From IMG/VR virus record IMGVR_UViG_3300046028_007772, positions 1-22,143 of that record: 22,143 nt of DNA, one strand, 5' to 3'. Both the position numbers and the translations under genes were made by a program. This DNA is from a virus. Position 1 is the stretch's first letter; the number at the start of each line of letters is the position of its first letter. Positions 4,143-22,143 of this stretch are shown piece by piece. Under the pieces are notes generated by a model. The model ran no database searches, was not told the DNA's origin, and saw only the letters and a list, made by a program, of their open reading frames with translations.

Positions 4143-6236
4143 TTATGGTTGTTGTAAAGTAAATTGTTCAGGCGGTAATTCTTGCGGTATTGGTTGCGGT
4201 TGTTGCGTTTGCTCTTGCGGTATCGGTTGCCCTGCCTCTTGTAGTGTCTTGATTGTGTCTGCTTTTGTTAAATCAGTTTTGGCTTGATTTAACACAACAT
4301 CAGAAGCAATTTTTTGAGTATCTGCTTTTAACTTATCAGCACTTGCCAACAGATAAAGCGATTGTGGGTCTGGTTGTTGCTCTTGCTTTTGCTGTTCAAG
4401 TAATGCCTGTTTTTCTTCTTCGTTCGGTTCAATTAATCCTTTTGTTACAAGGCGATTGCGATAGTATTTTTTAATGTCTGATTGTCCTTCAAAGTCCATG
4501 TTCATAATGATTAAATCAGTGATATTTTGAACTGAATCAGGGTCTTGAATGAATGGCAACAATGCCATAAGTTTTTTAGTATTTTTCTCGGAACGTGTAG
4601 AACTAGAAGCACCAATATCGACAACAACTTCTAAATTAGCTTTTGACATATCGTTAATAATGCCTTTATCAATCACGTTTTGATTAAGGACTGCCTTTGA
4701 CGCATTGCCTATTATATCGACAACCTTAACTTCTCGGTTATCCTCTACATATATCTCTTTAGCCATGCCAAGCCATACCTTGCCAAGTCGTCTTAGCATC
4801 TTTGCAAAGTTCGTAACAAAGATATATGCTTGTTTCTCTAATCGTTCTTGTACGCTTTCAATAGCTTCATCGGATATGTTAGACGCTATTTTGTCACCCT
4901 GTTCTTGATTGCCCAATAACTCGGATATGTCAGCGTCTGTCTGTTGTATGAGTGCTGCTAAAACAGGCGGTAAATCAGCAACCTTAGTATAACCTAGCGG
5001 ACCCGATACAACATTGCTTTGACCATTCGCATTTTGAATAGAATTAACCAAAAGATACGGATAATTCTTAACGTCCTTATCAGCCCACATTTGAGCAATA
5101 GTAGGGGGCATCTGTTCTGCGTGAAATATCGGAAGTTCCGTTGATGAATTAGAAGCGAACTTCGCAAGCATACTTAGAATTGTGTTTTTAAGCCGTGATA
5201 CATCTTTAACAAAGCGTACATGACCATGATAATATTCTTTGCCACCAATATAAAAATGCGTTGCGTAAAAAGGAATAATTGGCAAGCAATTACCTGCAAT
5301 ATACCCACAATCCTCTACAATACCGCAACCAGAAACAATATATTTTCTGATTTTTGTAACTGTTTTCTTGCGTTCTTTTTCTTTTTTCCAACCTTTTAAC
5401 TTTAATTCAGCGATTAATTCTTTTGCATCATCATCGTCTAAGTCAATCTCTTTTGTTTCTTTTTTACCACCTGCGACATTAAATAAATTAGCATTGTAAA
5501 ACTTAGCAAAATTCTTTTTTACCTTTTCTTTTTCGTAATATTCAGCAACCTTAATGACATCTTTATCAGTGCCAGTGACCCAATCAAACGCCCCTGTTAT
5601 CGGTATATAGACATCAAAATCAGCCATTTTTTCAGTGCCATATTTGTCAATAAAATCTTCCTTTGACATTTCATAAGCAACAAATACATGACGTGCATCG
5701 CTTTTGTCTTGCTTTTTTGCGTGTGCGTCAAAAAATACACTGCAATCAGCGTCGAATATCGGTTCTATTCGGATTGTCTGAGCAGGTTCGTCTAATTCGT
5801 CACCCTCGTCTTCATAATCGTCTTCGTACTCTTCGTCTTCATAGCACGTTACTAATCGGACTGCACCAAAGCCACCACTTATGCCCTCGCCGAAACAATT
5901 ATCATAAGCCTCTTCGGCGTTGCTATCTTGTTCTGTTGCCCTAAATTTGCCGTCAAGAACGCTTGCAATATCATTTTTTTCGCCAAATTTATTATGAAAA
6001 TCAACTGTTATTCGATTGCTTCGATACTCGTTTATGATGCGAACAATCGCAAGATTAACTTTATTGACCTCCATTTTAGGGGCATTTGTCCAGTCAGCAA
6101 GATATTTATCACCCCACATTCCACCTGCGATAGAGGCGAATTTTCTATCTTCTAGCGACTGCTCTCTCACGTCACGAGTTATTGACTCTGAATTTGTAAA
6201 ATATCTTAAAATCTGTTTGTTTTTATCGTCTGTCAT
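4143..6236 (-). CDS. P22 gp1-like portal protein
   Basis: At 697 residues it is the size of the P22 portal (725 aa), the dodecameric ring at the packaging vertex. It begins 4 bp after the large terminase stop. Visible features: an N-terminal region with LADWTNAPKMEVNKVNLAI and IINEYRSNRITVDF, typical of P22-like portals; a very acidic loop near residues 133-155; a middle block with CLPIIPFYATHFYIGG and HGHVRFVKDVSRLKNTILSML, matching the family's wing-stem segment; the helix with ISELLGNQEQGDKIASNIS; and a Q/P-rich tail of about 70 residues resembling the barrel-end region. The ribosome site is weak (TGGTGA), suggesting coupling to the upstream gene. P22-type portal is clear from these blocks and position. 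Confidence 0.9.
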   Translation of the reverse strand: MTDDKNKQILRYFTNSESITRDVREQSLEDRKFASIAGGMWGDKYLADWTNAPKMEVNKVNLAIVRIINEYRSNRITVDFHNKFGEKNDIASVLDGKFRATEQDSNAEEAYDNCFGEGISGGFGAVRLVTCYEDEEYEDDYEDEGDELDEPAQTIRIEPIFDADCSVFFDAHAKKQDKSDARHVFVAYEMSKEDFIDKYGTEKMADFDVYIPITGAFDWVTGTDKDVIKVAEYYEKEKVKKNFAKFYNANLFNVAGGKKETKEIDLDDDDAKELIAELKLKGWKKEKERKKTVTKIRKYIVSGCGIVEDCGYIAGNCLPIIPFYATHFYIGGKEYYHGHVRFVKDVSRLKNTILSMLAKFASNSSTELPIFHAEQMPPTIAQMWADKDVKNYPYLLVNSIQNANGQSNVVSGPLGYTKVADLPPVLAALIQQTDADISELLGNQEQGDKIASNISDEAIESVQERLEKQAYIFVTNFAKMLRRLGKVWLGMAKEIYVEDNREVKVVDIIGNASKAVLNQNVIDKGIINDMSKANLEVVVDIGASSSTRSEKNTKKLMALLPFIQDPDSVQNITDLIIMNMDFEGQSDIKKYYRNRLVTKGLIEPNEEEKQALLEQQKQEQQPDPQSLYLLASADKLKADTQKIASDVVLNQAKTDLTKADTIKTLQEAGQPIPQEQTQQPQPIPQELPPEQFTLQQP

Positions 6237-7822: not shown

Positions 7823-7884
7823 GCTCTAAAAATACCACATAAAAAAATAAATGCAAATAAAATAAAAAAAATGCAAAACAGAAG

Positions 7885-7913
7885 TTGACTTTAGTATAAA
7901 GTTATACTATAAT
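7885..7913 (+). promoter_or_regulatory. strong sigma-70 promoter with embedded operator palindrome
   Basis: TTGACT at 7885-7890 and TATAAT at 7908-7913 are separated by exactly 17 bp. Between them lies a perfect inverted repeat, AGTATAA (7893-7899), two bases, TTATACT (7902-7908), which overlaps the first base of the -10 box. This is the geometry of an operator that blocks polymerase. It drives the HTH gene at 7960, whose product is the simplest candidate repressor. Confidence 0.8.
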
Positions 7914-7959
7914 CATCACAAAAACGCAATCAAGCGGACGACAATATGGATAGACTAAA

Positions 7960-8151
7960 ATGACCGCACAAGCCACAATCCAAGCACTAGAATCACTAGG
8001 CATCACACGGTATCGCATCGCTTGCGATACTGGCATACCTAAAATGCAACTGTGCAACTGGGTAACTGGACGCACAAAGCCACATCGGAGTAATTCTGAC
8101 GTGAAAAAATTAACAGAATATTATCAAAAAATCACTGGAGAAATGAAATGA
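7960..8151 (+). CDS. small Cro-like HTH regulator
   Basis: A 63-residue protein. Residues 12-42 (SLGITRYRIACDTGIPKMQLCNWVTGRTKPHR) read as a helix-turn-helix of the Cro/YdaS-like XRE class: helix, GI turn, recognition helix MQLCNWVTGRTKPH. It follows the strong promoter at 7885 and probably binds the 16-bp palindrome inside it. A five-codon reading frame (7946-7963) ends over its start codon in an ATGA overlap; that may be chance. The upstream ribosome site is poor (GGATAG). It diverges from the packaging operon, so it might act as a switch between early and late transcription (inference). Confidence 0.75.
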   Translation: MTAQATIQALESLGITRYRIACDTGIPKMQLCNWVTGRTKPHRSNSDVKKLTEYYQKITGEMK

Positions 8152-8798: not shown

Positions 8799-8999
8799 TT
8801 AATCATCTAACGGCGGTAAATTGCGTTTACTCATAACTGGTCTTGGGTGTACTGCACGTCCAGCGACAAACGATTTAAACTTTGGTGGTCGCTTAGGTTT
8901 ATATATCCTTACAGTCCGTGATTCCCTTGCGTCTGAATTGGTTGCTGTTACAATCGCAAAACACATAACCACCGACAAAATAATCGCTATGATACGCAT
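8799..8999 (-). CDS. small secreted or membrane-anchored basic protein
   Basis: A 66-residue protein whose first 19 residues (MRIIAIILSVVMCFAIVTA) are a clear signal peptide or single membrane anchor: one Arg followed by an uninterrupted hydrophobic run. A cleavage site is plausible near NSDA-RES. The mature part is basic and proline-rich (KPKRPPKFK, HPRPVMSKRNLPPLDD). The Cys at 13 is not in a good lipobox, so a lipoprotein is unlikely. The ATG has GAGGGG upstream and overlaps the HTH gene by 13 bp. Size and composition would allow a spanin-like or superinfection-related envelope protein, but no lysis genes are adjacent. Function unknown. Confidence 0.68.
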   Translation of the reverse strand: MRIIAIILSVVMCFAIVTATNSDARESRTVRIYKPKRPPKFKSFVAGRAVHPRPVMSKRNLPPLDD

Positions 9000-9331
9000 T
9001 TCTTGCCCCTCACGCTTGCAATGATAACATCAACATCTTTTTGACGGATACTTAGTTTTTCAGCGATTTCATGGGGTGATAATTTATTGCCAAGCAGTTT
9101 TATCACTTCGATTTTTTGCATGATAGGGCAGGTAAATTTTGGCTTTGGTGGTGGTGTTGGTTTACGCCTTGGCTGTGATACCCTAAGTTGCAGATGCCTT
9201 AAATTAAAATAACCTAACATCTGGACAAGATATTCACGCCTGATGCCAAACATCTCACACACGTCCTGCCGTGATACACCGCTTTCAAGTGTTTTTATAA
9301 TTACGTCCCAATCGTACTTATAGCCTGCCAT
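8987..9331 (-). CDS. protein with two helix-turn-helix segments
   Basis: I choose the ATG at 9329-9331 because GGGGGA lies five bases upstream; a longer frame from 9382 would need a TTG start with no good site. The 114-residue product has two HTH-like segments: GVSRQDVCEMFGIRREYLVQML near residues 18-39 and KLSPHEIAEKLSIRQKDVDVIIA near 83-105, separated by a proline/lysine linker (RRKPTPPPKPKFT). This resembles tandem homeodomain-like phage regulators or small DNA-binding adaptor proteins. It sits between rusA and a secreted protein gene on the same strand. DNA binding is likely; its target is unknown. Confidence 0.7.
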   Translation of the reverse strand: MAGYKYDWDVIIKTLESGVSRQDVCEMFGIRREYLVQMLGYFNLRHLQLRVSQPRRKPTPPPKPKFTCPIMQKIEVIKLLGNKLSPHEIAEKLSIRQKDVDVIIASVRGKKCVS

Positions 9332-10059: not shown

Positions 10060-10956
10060 TTATAAATACTGAAAGATGATGCCCCATGAGTGTATTTTAT
10101 TTTCTGGGGGCTTTTTGATAATATTTAAAAATACACTAAAAATCTGCTCTTTTGTGTATCCATTTTTTAACAGTTTTAAAAAAACCAAATTGCTATCTAT
10201 TGTTTCACTTTCATGGTCTATGTAATCACCTAATCTTTCCTTTGCTCGACTCAAAATATAATCAGCTGTATCAAAATTATTAACCTTTGCAGGCTTATCC
10301 TTGGCAATCCAATTAACAAATGCACGTTGCCAATCTTTTTTCGAAGCTTTTGACGGTGGCAGGGCAGGATTTAACCAATAATTCTCAAAATTTGTAAAAT
10401 GCTTTTCTGCCTCGGATTCTGAAAATCGCTTTGCCTTTGCGATTGCATAGCATTTTGTTTTAAAATCCTCTCGATTATTACTCTCATAAAAAACTTTCAA
10501 ACAACGCCCCCCTGAATCCCCTGCTAAGGGGGCAGGGGGTAAAGTAGGTTCACTAGGTTCTCTCGGTTCTATAGGTTTGTAGTCAAATTTTGAGGTATGG
10601 TTTGACGTGTCAACTGACGTGTCAACTGACGTGTCAATATTTGACGTATCATTTTTTGACACGTCAATATTTGATGTGTCAACTTTCGGTAAAGCCTTAT
10701 TTTCAGTAAGAAAAACATAAGAATTTATTGACGATGTAAATTTTCTAATCTTAGAGATTTTAATTATTTTTTCTGCTTCAAGCTCTCGTAAACACTTTTG
10801 AATAGTATTTTGTGATAATTGCAAAGTTTCTGATAATAACTGTAGAGAGGGGAAGCATTGCCCTGTCTTTCTGTTTCTATATGAGCATATCGTTATAGCA
10901 ACGATTTTAGCGTGTGCTGATACGTTACTATCCCTTATTTCCTCGATAAAACTCAT
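10060..10956 (-). CDS. lambda O-like replication initiator (winged helix plus DnaT-like C-terminus)
   Basis: A 298-residue protein. Residues about 8-85 form a winged-helix domain (SAHAKIVAITICSYRNRKTGQCFPSLQLLSETLQLSQNTIQKCLRELEAEKII in pieces), as in phage initiators that bind origin repeats. A low-complexity linker (residues 92-122) repeats (N/V)DTS. It is followed by a P/E-rich stretch and a DnaT-like block at 185-220 (HFTNFENYWLNPALPPSKA then KDWQRAFVNWIAKD), the type thought to contact ssDNA or helicase. The linker DNA carries six palindromic repeats, as lambda carries its origin inside gene O. The adjacent divergent DnaB-type helicase supports the role. The ATG overlaps the upstream stop by 4 bp. 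Confidence 0.85.
   Translation of the reverse strand: MSFIEEIRDSNVSAHAKIVAITICSYRNRKTGQCFPSLQLLSETLQLSQNTIQKCLRELEAEKIIKISKIRKFTSSINSYVFLTENKALPKVDTSNIDVSKNDTSNIDTSVDTSVDTSNHTSKFDYKPIEPREPSEPTLPPAPLAGDSGGRCLKVFYESNNREDFKTKCYAIAKAKRFSESEAEKHFTNFENYWLNPALPPSKASKKDWQRAFVNWIAKDKPAKVNNFDTADYILSRAKERLGDYIDHESETIDSNLVFLKLLKNGYTKEQIFSVFLNIIKKPPENKIHSWGIIFQYL
10602..10682. repeat. six iteron-like palindromes within the initiator gene (probable replication origin)
   Basis: Six copies of a 12-bp palindrome (TTGAC, two bases, GTCAA) start at 10602, 10614, 10626, 10641, 10656 and 10671. Copies 1 and 5 have perfect arms; the rest differ by one to three bases. Spacing is 12, 12, 15, 15, 15 bp, multiples of three, so the gene stays open and encodes a repeated DTS peptide. 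AT-rich DNA follows at about 10684-10780, a candidate unwinding element. This matches the arrangement of oriλ inside gene O. Confidence 0.82.
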
Positions 10957-12767: not shown

Positions 12768-12959
12768 TCATGCTTCCCCCAATATGTCTTTTGCGATTTT
12801 ATCGAGTACAGCACGAACTTTCAGATAATTTTCTGTGTTAAACGTGTGTGTGCCACTCTTGAAATTAGCAATCGTTGCCCTTCCAATTCCTGCCAGCTCT
12901 GCAATATAGGTTGCTTTGAACGGCTTAAGGTCTTCTTTGAGTCTTTCAATTTCATTCAT
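12768..12959 (-). CDS. small HTH regulator divergent from the recombination operon
   Basis: A 63-residue protein with an XRE-like helix-turn-helix at residues 14-45 (FKATYIAELAGIGRATIANF then KSGTHTFNTENYL). The motif IAELAGIGRATIANFKSG is close to the classic repressor pattern. AAAGGA lies nine bases before the ATG. It is transcribed away from the recombination operon, and a GTCAA...TTGAC palindrome at 13018-13037 covers both back-to-back promoters, so it probably represses itself and the operon starting at 13094. It lacks any dimerization or cleavage domain, so it would be a Cro-type rather than cI-type repressor. Confidence 0.78.
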   Translation of the reverse strand: MNEIERLKEDLKPFKATYIAELAGIGRATIANFKSGTHTFNTENYLKVRAVLDKIAKDILGEA

Positions 12960-17827: not shown

Positions 17828-18078
17828 TATCTTACCTCTATTGTTTTATATAATTCTATAGTAAAGCAACCGTGACAAATTTTTACCAAACTATCACGGT
17901 TATTTTCTCTAAAAAGCGAATCGATTAAATATTGTCCACTTTCGACCGAACCGCAATTTATTTTTGCAACCTTATCTTTAAAAAAAGAATGACCTTGTCC
18001 GTCTTGATTATGCTTTTCTTGTGAAAATTCATAAGTCCAGTCTGCGCAATCGCTAATTGCTGATATGTTTTGCATCAT
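17827..18078 (-). CDS. hypothetical accessory protein
   Basis: An 83-residue protein with four Cys (residues 11, 42, 68 and 71) including a CHGC pair near 68-71. The N-terminal part is polar with DGQGHSFFKDKVAKI. The CHGC pair could bind metal, but there is no clear second pair. No family recognised. AGAGAGGTAAG precedes two consecutive ATGs (18078 and 18075), either of which could be used. It overlaps the mini-ATPase stop. Confidence 0.65.
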   Translation of the reverse strand: MMQNISAISDCADWTYEFSQEKHNQDGQGHSFFKDKVAKINCGSVESGQYLIDSLFRENNRDSLVKICHGCFTIELYKTIEVR

Positions 18079-18521
18079 CTTACCTCTCTATTTTTACTGA
18101 TTGCTTTTATTAATTCGTCTGCAGTGTACATTGACACGACAGAACGGTTATTGTCCTTTGGTATAGCAGAGCGTCCCAACCGATAATAATAAGCCTCTAT
18201 ATTAGGGTATTCCTTGGCAACTTCTACAAACGCCTGAATAACGTCGAGGCGTTGGGTTGTTGCAAAGATTTGTTGGCTATATTTTTTGATATTATTAAAA
18301 TAAAACCTAATTTCTTTATGTAGCTCACTGTAGTGTGTTGAAAATAAAATCTCATCAATTATTTTCACATCATCTGTACGTCCTGCAATGGAATTAAATA
18401 TATCATATTGTCCATTTTCATACTTACCGCAAAACAGATTAAAATGACCCAATTTATCAATCGTGAGATTATCTATATTTGTGCAATGGATATTCTCTAT
18501 TTTCTCAATGTGTTTCTTCAT
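18075..18521 (-). CDS. miniature, ATPase-dead AAA15/OLD-like protein
   Basis: I start at the second ATG (18521) because AAGGGA is six bases upstream; the first ATG (18527) abuts it. The 148 residues match both ends of the AAA15 (ABC-type) ATPase family but lack the middle. IEKIENIHCTNIDNLTIDKL plus GHFNLFCGKYENGQYDIFNSI (about 5-45) aligns with the family's N-terminal strand and P-loop, yet GKYENGQY replaces GKNNSGKT, so nucleotide binding is lost. KIIDEI (53-58) is a Walker B, HYSELHKEI follows it, and QIFATTQRLDVIQAFVEVA (84-102) matches the ATTHS switch region with His changed to Gln. Normal members exceed 350 residues. It has intact spacing and a ribosome site, so it is probably expressed. 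Confidence 0.72.
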   Translation of the reverse strand: MKKHIEKIENIHCTNIDNLTIDKLGHFNLFCGKYENGQYDIFNSIAGRTDDVKIIDEILFSTHYSELHKEIRFYFNNIKKYSQQIFATTQRLDVIQAFVEVAKEYPNIEAYYYRLGRSAIPKDNNRSVVSMYTADELIKAISKNREVR

Positions 18522-18534
18522 AATCATTCCCTTC

Positions 18535-18741
18535 TTAACTCAATGATATGTTTTTCATGTGATTAAATTCTGACACAAAATAATCTGATAAAGCCTGCAA
18601 GGTGCTGACATCAATATTTGCATCATCTTTTTTGGCAATTCTGGATAAAGTGCCATGCGTCAAGCCGACCTTTTTAGCGATTGCTGACAAATTGCGTTCA
18701 CGCTTAAGTAAATCGCTTATTGTTTTAATTGTTAATAACAT
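18535..18741 (-). CDS. XRE-like HTH regulator of the accessory cluster
   Basis: A 68-residue protein. Residues 17-50 (NLSAIAKKVGLTHGTLSRIAKKDDANIDVST) form a clear XRE helix-turn-helix: LSAIAKKVGLTHGTLSRIAK is near consensus. AGAGAGGTTAAA precedes the ATG. It is the first gene of the leftward accessory cluster and diverges from the gene at 18872. The palindrome TGTTAT-aaaa-ATAACA (18755-18770) just upstream is a likely operator for self-regulation and perhaps for the divergent promoter. No dimerization domain is present. Confidence 0.8.
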   Translation of the reverse strand: MLLTIKTISDLLKRERNLSAIAKKVGLTHGTLSRIAKKDDANIDVSTLQALSDYFVSEFNHMKNISLS

Positions 18742-18754
18742 TTTAACCTCTCTA

Positions 18755-18804
18755 TGTTATAAAAATAACAATACATTATCAAAATAGATATTGCAAGGTA
18801 TAAA
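18755..18804 (+). promoter_or_regulatory. divergent control region: operator palindrome and rightward promoter
   Basis: TGTTATAAAAATAACA (18755-18770) is a perfect 16-bp palindrome; a shorter relative, TGTTAATAACA, lies at 18730-18740 over the HTH start. A rightward promoter is formed by TTATCA (18776-18781), 17 bp and TATAAA (18799-18804). A leftward TTGATA/TAACAT pair overlaps the palindrome on the other strand. Both promoters sit within reach of one repressor. Confidence 0.55.
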
Positions 18805-18871
18805 TTTATCTGTTATGGTGATTCTGTTAAAACAACTGGGACGCAAGTTCCGCATTTTAAGGAGAATGAAA

Positions 18872-19144
18872 ATGAAAGTTAAAAATTTGGAGAAAGCCTT
18901 AGATTTGGCAAAAAGTATTAATAGACTTAAAGAGAAGCGTGATAGCTTGTTGAGACTTAAAAAAGAAGAACCCAATGAAATTCAATGCTCATTTTATGGC
19001 GATGGAAGCCGACTTGTGTACTTTGAGCAAGCCTTTTCTAGGTAAGAAATCTTAGATATTTCAAAATATATAGCATTTTTAATTGAAAAAAGAATAAAAG
19101 CCCGTGAAGTCGAATTGAAATTATTGGGTGTTGATGATGTGTAA
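18872..19144 (+). pseudogene. small helical protein gene split by an in-frame TAA
   Basis: The start is the ATG at 18872, seven bases after AAGGAG. The first 57 codons encode MKVKNLEKALDLAKSINRLK, a helical region, then SFYGDGSRLVYFEQAFSR. A TAA (19043-19045) follows, and the same frame then continues for 32 sense codons (EILDISKYIAFLIEKRIKA then REVELKLLGVDDV) to a second TAA at 19142-19144. The downstream part reads as a natural helical tail, and the next gene starts inside its end, as intact gene pairs here do. Either a recent nonsense mutation or read-through is implied; alternatively only the 57-residue product is made. Confidence 0.65.
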
Positions 19145-19451
19145 TAACAAACCCACCGAACTAACAGCCGTCACCATAGACGGCAACGAGTATGACAATG
19201 TAAGCGTTTACGGCTTATCCTATACATTTGACATTACCGACCACACTGACGATTATGGCTTTGGAGAGTCTGCACAGGTAATCACGAACATTGATTTTGA
19301 TTTAGTGGTTATCCATTTATACGGTGATACAGTTGATATTGATACACATAATAAAGATTGGGAATCTGTGAAAAAACAGGTTTCAGAGCATATTTTAGAG
19401 GACGAAGAAATTATGAAAGAATGGCAAGATAGGGAGCTTGCAAATGATTAA
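19134..19451 (+). CDS. acidic hypothetical phage protein
   Basis: I start at the ATG at 19134 (the next codon is also ATG); an in-frame GTG at 19128 is less likely. The 105-residue protein is acidic and beta-rich (LTAVTIDGNEYDNVSVYGLSY then DFDLVVIHLYGDTVDID), ending in a charged helix (VSEHILEDEEIMKEWQDREL). It has no strong ribosome site; the start lies inside the end of the upstream interrupted gene, so it may depend on coupling. No family recognised. Confidence 0.66.
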   Translation: MMCNNKPTELTAVTIDGNEYDNVSVYGLSYTFDITDHTDDYGFGESAQVITNIDFDLVVIHLYGDTVDIDTHNKDWESVKKQVSEHILEDEEIMKEWQDRELAND

Positions 19452-19743
19452 TTGGCACAGGATAACAAAGGATAATTTCACAGAATTTTTAAACGAGTGG
19501 AGTTTAGAGGAGATAAAACAAGATGGCATTGTTTTAAATACTTATTATTATTCTTGTTATGAAAATAGCAAGTACGTTTTTCTAAGCGATGAAAACTGCA
19601 TTGTAACAGAGGCAGAAATTTGCGTTAATAAGGACGGAACAGTTGATTGTAGAGAGTTTAAAGCGGAATGTAGTTACCACAATTTAACCCACTTTGCACT
19701 CCGCACAGAATACTTGGCAATTTTACCAAAGGATAGAAAATGA
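19444..19743 (+). CDS. hypothetical phage protein
   Basis: The ATG at 19444 is preceded by GGGAG at good spacing; an in-frame TTG two codons earlier is rejected. The 99-residue protein begins MINWHRITKDNFTEFLNEWS, then has SCYENSKYVFLSDENCIVTE and a strand-rich end (THFALRTEYLAIL). The composition suggests a small alpha/beta fold. It overlaps the preceding gene by 8 bp and the following one by 4 bp. Function unknown. Confidence 0.68.
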   Translation: MINWHRITKDNFTEFLNEWSLEEIKQDGIVLNTYYYSCYENSKYVFLSDENCIVTEAEICVNKDGTVDCREFKAECSYHNLTHFALRTEYLAILPKDRK

Positions 19744-19955
19744 AATACACAACACAATCACAAAATCCCGTAACCGCTGATTTTAGCGTGGGGGATTCTG
19801 TATCTAGTACGCTTCATAATTATAAAGGCGTTGTTTTAAATATTGATTCCTCAAAACCGCCTCATTCTTTTGTAGAGTGGGAAACTGGCAATTCTTACTG
19901 GTATGACAATAGACATTTAATTAAACAAAACACAGGAGAAAAAAATGACAAATAA
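19740..19955 (+). CDS. small SH3/KOW-like hypothetical protein
   Basis: A 71-residue protein overlapping its neighbour by 4 bp (ATGA), with AAGGA upstream. Residues 14-64 (ADFSVGDSVSSTLHNYKGVV, then FVEWETGNSYWYDNRHLI) show the VGD-V...Y-G-V pattern and four to five short strands of a small barrel, like proteins that read a translation, nucleic-acid or host-protein surface. No catalytic residues. Family not identified beyond the fold guess. Confidence 0.7.
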   Translation: MKYTTQSQNPVTADFSVGDSVSSTLHNYKGVVLNIDSSKPPHSFVEWETGNSYWYDNRHLIKQNTGEKNDK

Positions 19956-20646
19956 AATGATAGACGCTGATGCGTTAGATAACCTCTTTGAAGATATTTT
20001 TAAAAAAAGCACTTACAATATAATGGGCGTTGAATATGTTATTGATAAGGCAATCTTAATAAATATTCTGCATAGAATAAAAGAACTTGCCACACCTGCA
20101 CCTGCCCCACAGGAAAGCATTTTTGACATTAATAAATGGCAAAATTATCTAGAAACTAATGGACATGAGGGTGTTTTGTATAAAATATTGTTTGGCAATG
20201 AAAAAACATTAAAATTAATTCCTAGTTGCAACGGTCAAAAAATCCTTAACGCTTTTGATGATGATAATTTTAACCCCCTCAAAAATGAGCTTCATAAAAA
20301 CATTTTTATATGCCTCGACTTAGATGTGAAAGATTTTTTATGTGAGCCACAAGAAAGCATTTTTGATGCGGACGGTTGGTGTTGGAATATGGATAAAGCA
20401 CCAAGAGACGAAACAAGGATTTTAGGATTAACTTCTTTTGGTGCAGAAGTTGTAAAATACCACAATGAAAAGAATATTTACTATGGAGATAATTATTTTC
20501 AAATTTCTATTGGTTGGGTTGGGTGTGAACAAGATAGCACTTGTTTTCCAGAAATACATAATCCATTGAGCGGAATAAAAAAATGCCAAAACCAACCTAT
20601 TGCTTGGCAACCATTACCAACAATTTCAACTGGAGGCAAAGAATAA
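19945..20646 (+). CDS. hypothetical protein with C-terminal DUF551-like segment
   Basis: A 233-residue protein with AGGAG upstream. The N-terminal third is helical (IDADALDNLFEDIFKKSTY), then PAPAPQESIFDINKW. A second PQESIFDADGW occurs near residues 136-146, so the same linker is used twice. The C-terminal block NMDKAPRDETRILGLTSFGA then VVKYHNEKN...QPIAWQPLP resembles the W..M..APRDGT.IL......W.PLP pattern of short phage DUF551-type domains. This suggests a modular protein whose parts are swapped between phages. Function unknown. Confidence 0.7.
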   Translation: MTNKMIDADALDNLFEDIFKKSTYNIMGVEYVIDKAILINILHRIKELATPAPAPQESIFDINKWQNYLETNGHEGVLYKILFGNEKTLKLIPSCNGQKILNAFDDDNFNPLKNELHKNIFICLDLDVKDFLCEPQESIFDADGWCWNMDKAPRDETRILGLTSFGAEVVKYHNEKNIYYGDNYFQISIGWVGCEQDSTCFPEIHNPLSGIKKCQNQPIAWQPLPTISTGGKE

Positions 20647-20804
20647 TGACCTTTGAAAAAGAAACTTGCTTACAAAAAATAACTTTAGAACCATTAGCAA
20701 ACATCAAATCACCACGTGTTTTGATGAGAGAAATCCCTAATAATTGGCGTTACGAATATTATCACAAGCATTGGATTAATGACATACCGCACGATATACA
20801 ATAA
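20646..20804 (+). CDS. small hypothetical protein
   Basis: A 52-residue protein starting at the ATG at 20646, which shares a base with the previous stop (TAATG); GGAGG is upstream. Another in-frame ATG (20583) lies inside the preceding gene and is rejected. The sequence is polar and aromatic (MREIPNNWRYEYYHKHWIND). No family recognised. It is the last gene before a terminator. Confidence 0.62.
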   Translation: MTFEKETCLQKITLEPLANIKSPRVLMREIPNNWRYEYYHKHWINDIPHDIQ

Positions 20805-20812
20805 GCCCACCC

Positions 20813-20849
20813 CCCCCTGCCAGTTAATCGCTAGCAGGGGGTGTTTTTT
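20813..20849 (+). terminator. rho-independent terminator of the 18872-20804 operon
   Basis: CCCCCTGC (20813-20820) pairs with GCAGGGGG (20834-20841) around a 13-nt loop, followed by TG and six T residues. Extra C bases upstream would let the stem slip by a few positions. The reverse direction has no T run. Confidence 0.88.
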
Positions 20850-20901
20850 ATTTGTTTATTTCATAATATGCAATGCAAAAAAATATTAATTTAATCATGT
20901 T

Positions 20902-21237
20902 TTATCCTTTTTTCAACGCATTAATAAATCTTAAACAAGCATTAAACCCACTTGAAAAAGCCATATCACCATAACCAATAAATTCTATTGGCTCTAAGAG
21001 TTTTTTTAATAGCTTGACGTGATTATCATCTAATTTATCAATATCATCAGCATATTTTTCTATAAGTTGGTTTGCTTCTTCGTACATCACACTTGCGGAT
21101 TTTTTAAATAGATTTATCAAGTCAATTTGAATTTTGTCATGCAATTCTTTATCAAAATTATCATTATTAGGTTTTTTAATGTAATTTCTTACTAAACCTA
21201 TTTTTCTGTGATACTCTTTGAAATTTTCTTTTTTCAT
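20902..21237 (-). CDS. small helical hypothetical protein next to DUF262
   Basis: A 111-residue protein that is helical throughout, lysine-rich, with no Cys motif. It begins MKKENFKEYHRKIGLVRNYI and ends in GDMAFSSGFNACLRFINALK. GGAGGAG precedes the ATG inside the 3' end of the DUF262 gene, and the two overlap by 4 bp, so translation is coupled. The pairing suggests the two products act together, perhaps as effector and modulator (inference). No family recognised. Confidence 0.68.
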   Translation of the reverse strand: MKKENFKEYHRKIGLVRNYIKKPNNDNFDKELHDKIQIDLINLFKKSASVMYEEANQLIEKYADDIDKLDDNHVKLLKKLLEPIEFIGYGDMAFSSGFNACLRFINALKKG

Positions 21238-21674
21238 GCTCGCTCCTCCTCTTTATGTGCTGTTCCGCTGAAGTTCATAAGGTTGTAATAGTTTTTCAGA
21301 TATTCTATATCGTCGCTTTGTGTGACATAACAAGGGAATTGACAGTTGTGGAATTTTCTATCGGTAACCTCTGAATAAAACAAACCATACACTTTAAATT
21401 CATTGTTCACGTATTCCTTTATGGCATTAACACGCTGTTGTCCGTCAATTAACAACCTATCCAAAGCAGGATTGTCTGATTCGTTTACTGTGTAAGTGCC
21501 AATCGGTATTCCAACCAATAGCGACTCAATTAACCTTATCTTTTGCCCTTGCGTCCAGACAAGCGGACGCTGAAAATCAGGCAATTTAAAATTAAAATAA
21601 TTGAACTTAGGATTTGTAAAATGCCCTACTGTGTAATTATAATGTTGTCCCAAGTTAACCTTTGGCGGTATCAT
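21234..21674 (-). CDS. short standalone DUF262 (GmrS-like ParB-fold) protein
   Basis: A 146-residue protein with the DUF262 core: LPDFQRPLVWTQGQKIRLIE (residues 31-50), SLLVGIPIGTYTVNE (51-65) and RLLIDGQQRVNAIKEYV (73-89), the last holding the DGQQR motif that is near invariant in the family. DUF262 forms the ParB-like nucleotide-binding half of type IV restriction enzymes such as GmrSD and occurs in several defence systems, usually fused to a DUF1524 HNH nuclease. Here there is no nuclease domain, and the end (YYNLMNFSGTAHKEEERA) is a family variant. Phage copies could bind nucleotides or interfere with host enzymes; this is inference. Confidence 0.84.
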   Translation of the reverse strand: MIPPKVNLGQHYNYTVGHFTNPKFNYFNFKLPDFQRPLVWTQGQKIRLIESLLVGIPIGTYTVNESDNPALDRLLIDGQQRVNAIKEYVNNEFKVYGLFYSEVTDRKFHNCQFPCYVTQSDDIEYLKNYYNLMNFSGTAHKEEERA

Positions 21675-21877
21675 TCTAAACCCCTTTGCTCTTTAATTTC
21701 TTGCGTTACAGTTCTATTTATATATTCCAATTCCAATAGAGATTTTTCAAGCTCTCTAATATGGTTTCGCAACTGGTTAATGGTTAGGCAACCAGTAGCC
21801 GATATGTTGATTGTTGCCTCGTGTATTGTTTTCAAATCCACGATGTTAAGATATGGTTCATGTATTTTTATGTTCAT
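21671..21877 (-). CDS. small coiled-coil hypothetical protein
   Basis: A 68-residue protein. Residues 32-60 (TINQLRNHIRELEKSLLELEYI and on) form an amphipathic helix with heptad spacing, a likely dimerization coil. GGGT lies upstream of the ATG, inside the preceding HTH gene, which it overlaps by 20 bp; it overlaps DUF262 by 4 bp. No family recognised. It may dimerize with, or bridge, its neighbours. Confidence 0.65.
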   Translation of the reverse strand: MNIKIHEPYLNIVDLKTIHEATINISATGCLTINQLRNHIRELEKSLLELEYINRTVTQEIKEQRGLE

Positions 21878-22058
21878 TTAGTTTACCCATTTCAATGGTT
21901 GTTAATTTATGTCCTAGTTTTTCAAGGACTGGCACAAGCGATTCAAAGCGTGTTCTTGGTACTTTATTATTCGATTTCCACTTATCGACCGCATAGCTTG
22001 ATATACCCAATGCAATCGCTATATCTTTACTGTTATGCAAAATTTGCTTCCAATTCAT
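21858..22058 (-). CDS. HTH regulator heading the DUF262 operon
   Basis: A 66-residue protein. Residues 10-48 (SKDIAIALGISSYAVDKWKS then NNKVPRTRFESLVPVL) are an XRE/YdaS-type helix-turn-helix, with the recognition helix AVDKWKS and a basic turn. GAGGT precedes the ATG by about five bases. It heads the leftward operon and its promoter is covered by four 11-bp repeats, so it probably regulates itself, and possibly a rightward gene beyond the window edge whose promoter has TTGACA at 22123-22128. This arrangement resembles one arm of a repressor/Cro switch. Confidence 0.78.
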   Translation of the reverse strand: MNWKQILHNSKDIAIALGISSYAVDKWKSNNKVPRTRFESLVPVLEKLGHKLTTIEMGKLNEHKNT

Positions 22059-22074
22059 TTTTACCTCATTAATT

Positions 22075-22118
22075 ATTACAACTAAATTATAACAAAATTA
22101 CAATTATATTACAACTAT
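22075..22118. repeat. four tandem 11-bp repeats (operator array)
   Basis: Units start at 22075, 22086, 22097 and 22108: ATTACAACTAA, ATTATAACAAA, ATTACAATTAT, ATTACAACTAT. The first eight positions follow ATTAYAAY in every unit. The 11-bp period places each on the same face of the helix. They cover the -10 and -35 boxes of the leftward promoter. Confidence 0.75.
22086..22114 (-). promoter_or_regulatory. leftward promoter of the HTH-DUF262 operon
   Basis: On the minus strand TTGTAA (22109-22114) and a perfect TATAAT (22086-22091) are exactly 17 bp apart. The start site would be near 22079, giving a short leader with the ribosome site. The promoter lies wholly within the 11-bp repeat array. 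Confidence 0.75.
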
Positions 22119-22122
22119 TTTA

Positions 22123-22143
22123 TTGACATTTCAAAACAATCTT
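22123..22143 (+). promoter_or_regulatory. rightward -35 box pointing off the window
   Basis: A consensus TTGACA (22123-22128) lies just right of the repeat array; a -10 at 17-bp spacing would fall at 22146-22151, beyond the edge. It suggests a divergent gene to the right under the same repeats, possibly the main repressor. Confidence 0.4.

Follow-up and report, generated by a model that had tools for sequence, protein, structure and literature searches.

Symmetric binding to palindromes is the textbook role of the Cro/CI fold. Direct repeats about one turn apart are the target of lambda CII, an activator that binds as a tetramer to TTGC-N6-TTGC at the -35 element. In phage 186, Apl binds cooperatively to direct repeats 10–11 bp apart that lie between pR and pL, a binding mode described as common to lambda Xis and P2 Cox (PMC7498355). 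The P2 C repressor recognizes O1 and O2, two 8-bp direct repeats that are placed 22 bp apart (centre to centre) and flank the -10 element of Pe (PMC4752584). BldC of Streptomyces, a protein of 68 residues, is reported to line up head to tail on direct repeats, the number of which varies (PMC5859096). With the precedents in 186 (Apl) and P2 (C), where the repeats lie one or two turns apart, the idea of a direct-repeat operator is not new. Phages have an established class of tandem operators, of which the arrangement described below is a real but modest variant.

We analyzed a 22,143-nt stretch of viral DNA (the window), a separate virus record in which a tandem array of four short direct repeats precedes a leftward operon starting with a small helix-turn-helix (HTH) gene. 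With lambda CII the locus shares direct repeats about one turn apart at the -35 element, whereas the sequence and the promoter geometry differ, as does activation by a tetramer. The HTH product resembles the all-helical Cro proteins (Xfaso 1 Cro, 3bd1; P22 Cro, 1rzs) in length and in its predicted helical HTH fold; unlike for these, no palindromic operator above chance is present at the promoter, and the match to P22_Cro (E 0.01) is below the Pfam cut-off. The likeness to Apl includes direct, non-palindromic repeats 10–11 bp apart over early promoters, a small phage DNA-binding protein and promoter repression, the binding and the repression being putative in our case (PMC7498355). The differences are that Apl doubles as an excisionase and has repeats at att, whereas here the array is single and neither integrase nor resolvase was found in the two genomes scanned, and that pR and pL of 186 are convergent (PMC7498355), whereas PL and the candidate PR diverge here. 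The initial annotation, which had set the array against 'most phage operators' as separated palindromes, thus overlooked Apl, lambda Xis and P2 Cox (PMC7498355). The P2 C layout, two 8-bp repeats 22 bp apart with the -10 element between them, recurs in copies 2 and 4, but the full array has four units spaced by 11 bp where P2 has a pair at 22 bp, and the protein has 66 residues rather than the 99 given for P2 C, in a phage in which no integrase was found. BldC is likewise a very small regulator on head-to-tail direct repeats (PMC5859096; binding is putative here), yet it has a MerR-like winged HTH as opposed to the all-helical wingless model obtained here.

Distinct here are the predicted fold, the lack of a detectable integrase and the way in which operator copies coincide with promoter hexamers. 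Among the matches listed by a literature search there was no Cro-type protein on one-turn direct repeats in a non-integrating phage. If the HTH protein binds as we propose, it would show in compact form that a Cro/CI fold, and not only an excisionase family, can bind head to tail.

Direct repeats and the leftward promoter

Four exact matches to ATTAYAAY on the plus strand follow each other in steps of 11 bp, as the initial annotation had claimed (Table 1). The whole array spans 22075–22115 and reads RTTRTAAT on the minus strand. Tandem Repeats Finder independently reported 22075–22117 with period 11, 3.9 copies and a score of 58. The spacing had been described as exactly one helical turn; the 11-bp period is indeed exact, but it departs from the 10.5-bp turn by about 0.5 bp per copy. 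In transcription order, copies 1, 2 and 4 contain TTGTAAT and copy 3 contains TTATAAT, being the only copy with TTA instead of TTG, as a TATAAT -10 element requires. Copies 1 and 4 have a 17-nt context in common (88% identity), and the three-base linkers vary from copy to copy. The intergenic region is 78% A+T.

Table 1. Features of the array, the adjoining promoters and the leftward operon (window coordinates)
Feature	Position	Strand	Remarks
Repeat copy 1, GTTGTAAT	22108..22115	-	Contains the -35 hexamer TTGTAA (22114-22109)
Repeat copy 2, ATTGTAAT	22097..22104	-	In the -35/-10 spacer
Repeat copy 3, GTTATAAT	22086..22093	-	Contains the -10 hexamer TATAAT (22091-22086)
Repeat copy 4, GTTGTAAT	22075..22082	-	Over the putative transcription start (~22079, deduced from the -10)
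Leftward promoter PL, TTGTAA-17-TATAAT, extended -10 TG	22086..22114	-	Predicted by consensus scan
Candidate -35 of divergent rightward promoter PR, TTGACA	22123..22128	+	By eye, without a scan call
Cro/CI-type HTH protein, 66 aa	21858..22058	-	Operon gene 1; candidate binder and autoregulator
68-aa ORF, no family match above cut-off	21671..21877	-	Operon gene 2; overlaps the HTH gene
DUF262 / GmrSD N-terminal-like protein, 146 aa	21234..21674	-	Operon gene 3; ATGA overlap
111-aa ORF, no family match above cut-off	20902..21237	-	Operon gene 4; ATGA overlap

The 8-mer itself is not enriched in the window (10 matches observed, 10.06 expected). What is unusual is the phasing, as four of these 10 matches fall into an 11-bp register. 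Dinucleotide shuffling never reached the period-11 periodicity of the array, either in 5000 trials on the 118-bp intergenic region or in 300 on the whole window. Two other stretches, both inside an O-like replication gene, are comparable in this respect: one of period 12 at ~10,590 is more periodic than the array, and one of period 15 at 10,627 scores equally. The array statistics have to be read with caution in that two copies serve as -35 and -10 elements at the same time, and we therefore ran a control with both hexamers fixed and the other letters shuffled singly. None of 200,000 such shuffles restored the two remaining exact copies, while four phased copies with at most one mismatch arose 168 times. 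These results confirm that the four-unit array is real and beyond chance. In the 41,876-bp genome to which the window belongs (see below) it is also single: a search for paired units with at most one mismatch gave three overlapping matches, all inside the array.

It is nevertheless conceivable that no protein is involved, and that we are looking at an AT-rich early promoter with a look-alike -35, -10 and flanks or at a short tandem repeat derived by slippage. The unremarkable frequency of the 8-mer, the promoter hexamers within two copies and the 168 near-matches would be consistent with this. The shuffles of the intergenic region and those with the promoter fixed argue against it, as do the variable linkers, which are unlike fresh slippage, and a direct repeat at the corresponding place in a related phage. 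We regard this explanation as quite improbable.

The array overlaps a predicted early promoter, PL. Its score in the consensus scan (10 of 12) is the top score, tied among three of the 36 promoter-like sites in 18000–22143, and of these three PL is the only one with a TG before the -10 element. Consistent with what had been proposed, the array covers the promoter completely, its copies holding the -35, the spacer, the -10 and the start region. Its distance from the HTH start codon is 16 nt. On the other side, the candidate -35 of PR begins 8 bp past the last repeat; the matching candidate -10 (TAAGGT) was read in L003, outside the window. The next gene to the right of the window is rightward in window coordinates and codes for 109 residues without a family match above the cut-off; the TTGACA would be a plausible -35 element for this gene.

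A palindromic operator above chance was not found at PL by either a self-palindrome or an inverted-repeat scan. Region 22040–22143 holds just three self-palindromes, each of 6 nt, and 86 of 100 shuffles gave an inverted repeat at least as good as its best imperfect one, which pairs at 10 of 13 positions. The array can thus be considered non-palindromic, as originally described, and we rejected a palindromic operator at PL.

It does not follow, however, that such an array implies a protein that polymerizes along DNA or binds as stacked monomers. P2 C binds as a dimer to direct repeats spaced by 22 bp, which is precisely the geometry of two copies here. It is accordingly worth asking whether an HTH dimer might occupy only copies 2 and 4, which have the spacing and position of the P2 C repeats with the -10 element between them, with copies 1 and 3 resembling repeats mainly as the -35 and -10 elements whose hexamers they contain. 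However, the context that copy 1 has in common with copy 4 is more than a -35 element needs, and the repeats of the related phage are 10 bp apart rather than 22. A P2 C-like operator seems to us rather unlikely.

The phage genome and the HTH-DUF262 operon

Positions 1–22140 of the window match IMGVR_UViG_3300046003_004184 (G001; 41,876 bp) with zero mismatches, so that the window provides no independent evidence beyond that record. The match consists of two overlapping pieces that run across the ends of G001, and these ends have an identical 126 bp in common; G001 is therefore circular or terminally redundant. The head protein resembles P22-type coat proteins, and the portal and terminase genes adjoin. 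The window is thus part of a circularly assembled, P22-like phage genome. Phage_integrase (PF00589) and Resolvase (PF00239) were found in neither of the two records scanned, G001 and its diverged relative G002, the controls being positive in 14 of 14 and 11 of 14 cases. Region 8987–9313 weakly resembles a transposase PHROG (E 0.0079). The scanned 80 kb of the two phages contain no tRNA genes and therefore offer no hint of the host from this side.

These data bear on the possibility that the array serves an Apl-like recombination directionality factor (RDF). Direct repeats about 10–11 bp apart, typical of such systems, are present. A partner integrase was not found in either genome with the two profiles, nor was a second array at an attachment site found in the 41,876-bp G001 record. 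With no integrase found by these profiles and no second array in G001, the excisionase reading was rejected.

The four operon genes (Table 1) follow each other with end-to-start overlaps. The third codes for a stand-alone DUF262 protein, which has a full-length relative in Sinorhizobium phages (42.5% identity). The first gene product had been put forward as the nearest candidate binder; its place in the operon and its predicted Cro/CI-type fold agree with this. Its sequence matches are weak (phrog_409, E 0.004; Pfam P22_Cro, see above). The AlphaFold2 model, built from a two-row alignment, has a pLDDT of 90.2 and consists of five helices only; it lacks a wing (beta hairpin) after the HTH, the mark of the winged RDF/MerR-like proteins BldC, Cox and Xis. 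Foldseek returned no match under E 0.001 for the model, the best being Xfaso 1 Cro (3bd1, E 0.036), and the best row of VIA-align was again 3bd1, with a Z of 6.9 and an rmsd of 2.0 over 57 residues, HigA and others being tied with it. A P2 C or Apl label is absent among the best 50 of 245 Foldseek rows and the 50 VIA-align entries listed, which excludes neither. We read the product as a Cro/CI-type HTH protein without a wing, as far as the model goes, and no more.

The phage has other HTH genes as well: small ones at 7960 and 18535, and a further weak one at 12768. The HTH_3 gene at 18535–18741 is preceded by a palindrome-type site, TGTTATAAAAATAACA, noticed by eye at 18753–18772.

A diverged phage with the same module

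Of all the sequences scanned, one diverged phage, IMGVR_UViG_3300011336_000447 (G002), has the same module. Single-sequence and alignment scans of viral_contigs with the HTH protein returned no further relatives beyond the same phage and G002, and scans of genome_contigs and plasmids gave none. In the phages collection, the HTH protein retrieved four weak records (E 0.5–0.9) and its G002 counterpart none. Scans with DUF262 yielded three more loci, all remote, two of them viral and one from genome sequences, while a scan with gene 18075–18527 returned the same two phages only. We also collected terminase relatives, keeping 80 of 140 confirmed, and looked for the HTH gene in the 31 on contigs >10 kb (G001 not counted) plus G002. 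Of these 32 records, just G002 gave a match. One record without an HTH match, G004 (27,364 bp), has an identical terminase and is probably a fragment of the same phage lacking the array end.

G002 has the same gene order (HTH, ORF, DUF262) beside a divergent gene. The HTH proteins are 38% identical, and the DUF262 proteins 65% by tblastn or 72% by alignment. The TTGTAAT/ATTAYAAY array was not found in G002, including its 121-bp intergenic region. At the matching place, this region has a perfect direct repeat instead, AACGTGCTAT, present twice at 10 bp. Its distance from the likely HTH start codon is 13 nt, compared with 16 nt for the array in G001; this codon was assigned from the alignment and the ribosome-binding site and lies 15 nt past the mechanical ORF start, which falls inside the repeat. 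The two direct repeats differ in both count and pitch, G002 having two copies rather than four, at 10 bp rather than 11.

In shuffles, a repeat run of the G002 type was obtained in 6 of 5000 cases for periods 10–11 and in 21 of 5000 for periods 8–13. The 40 kb of G002 that we examined hold six runs of at least 8 at periods 10–11, three of them of at least 10, the AACGTGCTAT repeat included. Because G002 holds several such runs, the probability that one is placed in the 121-bp region by chance is of the order of 1%. The same search in 40 kb of G001 gave zero runs of at least 8, the exact runs of its own array being shorter and so not counted. The G002 region also has an imperfect, AT-rich inverted repeat (9 of 10 pairs), which is at chance level, the best inverted repeat of the region being equalled in 33 of 100 shuffles.

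The initial annotation held that related phages having the same HTH gene and no repeats would speak against the operator, and proposed counting repeats in such phages. The outcome is mixed: G002 lacks the ATTAYAAY array, yet it has a direct repeat of similar pitch at the same place, in other letters and with two copies only, so that the idea is neither refuted nor cleanly upheld.

A second predicted promoter region (window 7823–7959) aligns well between the window and G002 and provides a further comparison. Between a common TTGACT and TATAA, inside the -35/-10 spacer, the window has TAGTATAA-AG-TTATACTA (7892–7909), and G002 has TACTCTTA-AA-TAAGAGTA at the aligned place (L024 4100–4117). The arms are perfect over 8 bp in both phages; the operator-like symmetry is kept and the letters are changed. 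The best inverted repeat of this region was equalled in 0 of 100 shuffles for the window and 4 of 100 for G002, as against 86 of 100 (G001) and 33 of 100 (G002) for the same score at the HTH intergenic regions. Directly after the inverted repeat region the window has a small HTH gene (7960–8151), whereas its G002 relative (L024 4687–4881) is found two ORFs further down.

Thus, as far as the sequences tell, one promoter keeps an inverted repeat and the other a direct repeat. Because both persist with changed letters, it seems that architecture rather than sequence is kept between G001 and G002, although the comparison rests on these two distinct genomes only. The same architecture in different letters fits an HTH protein with a changed recognition helix. 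The two phages thus form a natural comparison, with the letters changed at both promoters. If the reading is true, the switching of small HTH proteins from symmetric to tandem binding could be tested with 66-residue proteins and 60-bp DNA.

Predicted autoregulation and competing readings

We slightly favour the view that this early phage promoter is autoregulated through the four repeats as its operator: the HTH product would bind to them head to tail and repress the promoter. This operator probably co-evolves with its HTH protein. In the proposed mechanism, the protein would bind the TTGTAAT units on nearly one face of the DNA and, since its sites are themselves the -35, the spacer, the -10 and the start region, would block RNA polymerase. 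It would thereby limit its own operon, that is, the HTH gene, the 68-aa ORF, DUF262 and the 111-aa ORF. Copy 3 would probably be the weakest site, because it deviates from TTGTAAT exactly as a good -10 element demands. Perhaps the divergent promoter would be affected too; an effect of the array on PR is our conjecture. We infer that the HTH protein is the binder, that it represses, that neighbouring molecules cooperate and that it may polymerize along the DNA; monomer stacking, dimers and other binders are all open options.

Support for the operator comes from the array being beyond chance, its coincidence with PL, its single placement 16 nt before the HTH start codon, the AACGTGCTAT direct repeat at the matching place in G002 and the precedent of Apl in 186. 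What counts against it is that two genomes are compared, that the G002 pair is spaced by 10 bp rather than 11, that a similar array occurs without this HTH gene in another phage (L007, below) and that Cro proteins bind palindromes as dimers. A more specific version is doubtful: an all-helical 66-residue Cro-type protein of an integrase-less phage might bind as head-to-tail monomers to operator copies fused with the promoter hexamers, in a lineage that keeps one-turn direct repeats while the word and the recognition helix change together.

The four-unit pattern was found in two of the viral contigs scanned, G001 and a 115-kb phage (L007). In the latter, TTGTAAT occurs four times at 11 bp (6019–6059), directly upstream of a promoter-like TTGACT -35, and the HTH profile gave no match in L007 up to E 10. 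Since this array stands in an unrelated phage without an HTH match, the TTGTAAT word can arise without this HTH protein. The L007 array may reflect chance in AT-rich DNA or be the target of another regulator with similar taste. A different binder, of phage or host, such as a nucleoid-type silencer of AT-rich DNA or another phage regulator, might silence or activate PL or PR at our locus. The L007 array, the high A+T content of the region and the three additional HTH genes of the phage (two small, one weak) are compatible with this. On the other hand, the array is single and immediately precedes the HTH gene, and the relative, too, has a direct repeat in front of its HTH gene. We consider another binder unlikely.

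Head-to-tail repeats near one or two turns apart are also the layout of replication iterons, and the array resembles an origin bound by an initiator to that extent. Yet the array overlaps a promoter instead, and it was found neither in nor beside the O-like replication initiator gene (10060–10956), which has tandem repeats of its own. These repeats, TGACGTGTCA, have a period of 12–15 bp and lie inside the gene (10603–10682), a lambda-like place for an origin, so that they presumably represent a lambda-type origin. Origin iterons, which we deem so improbable as to be nearly negligible, were rejected on these grounds. Finally, G002 has scattered direct repeats of ACTCGTGAC in a stretch without a long ORF (L024 5454–5806), possibly an origin or a regulatory array.
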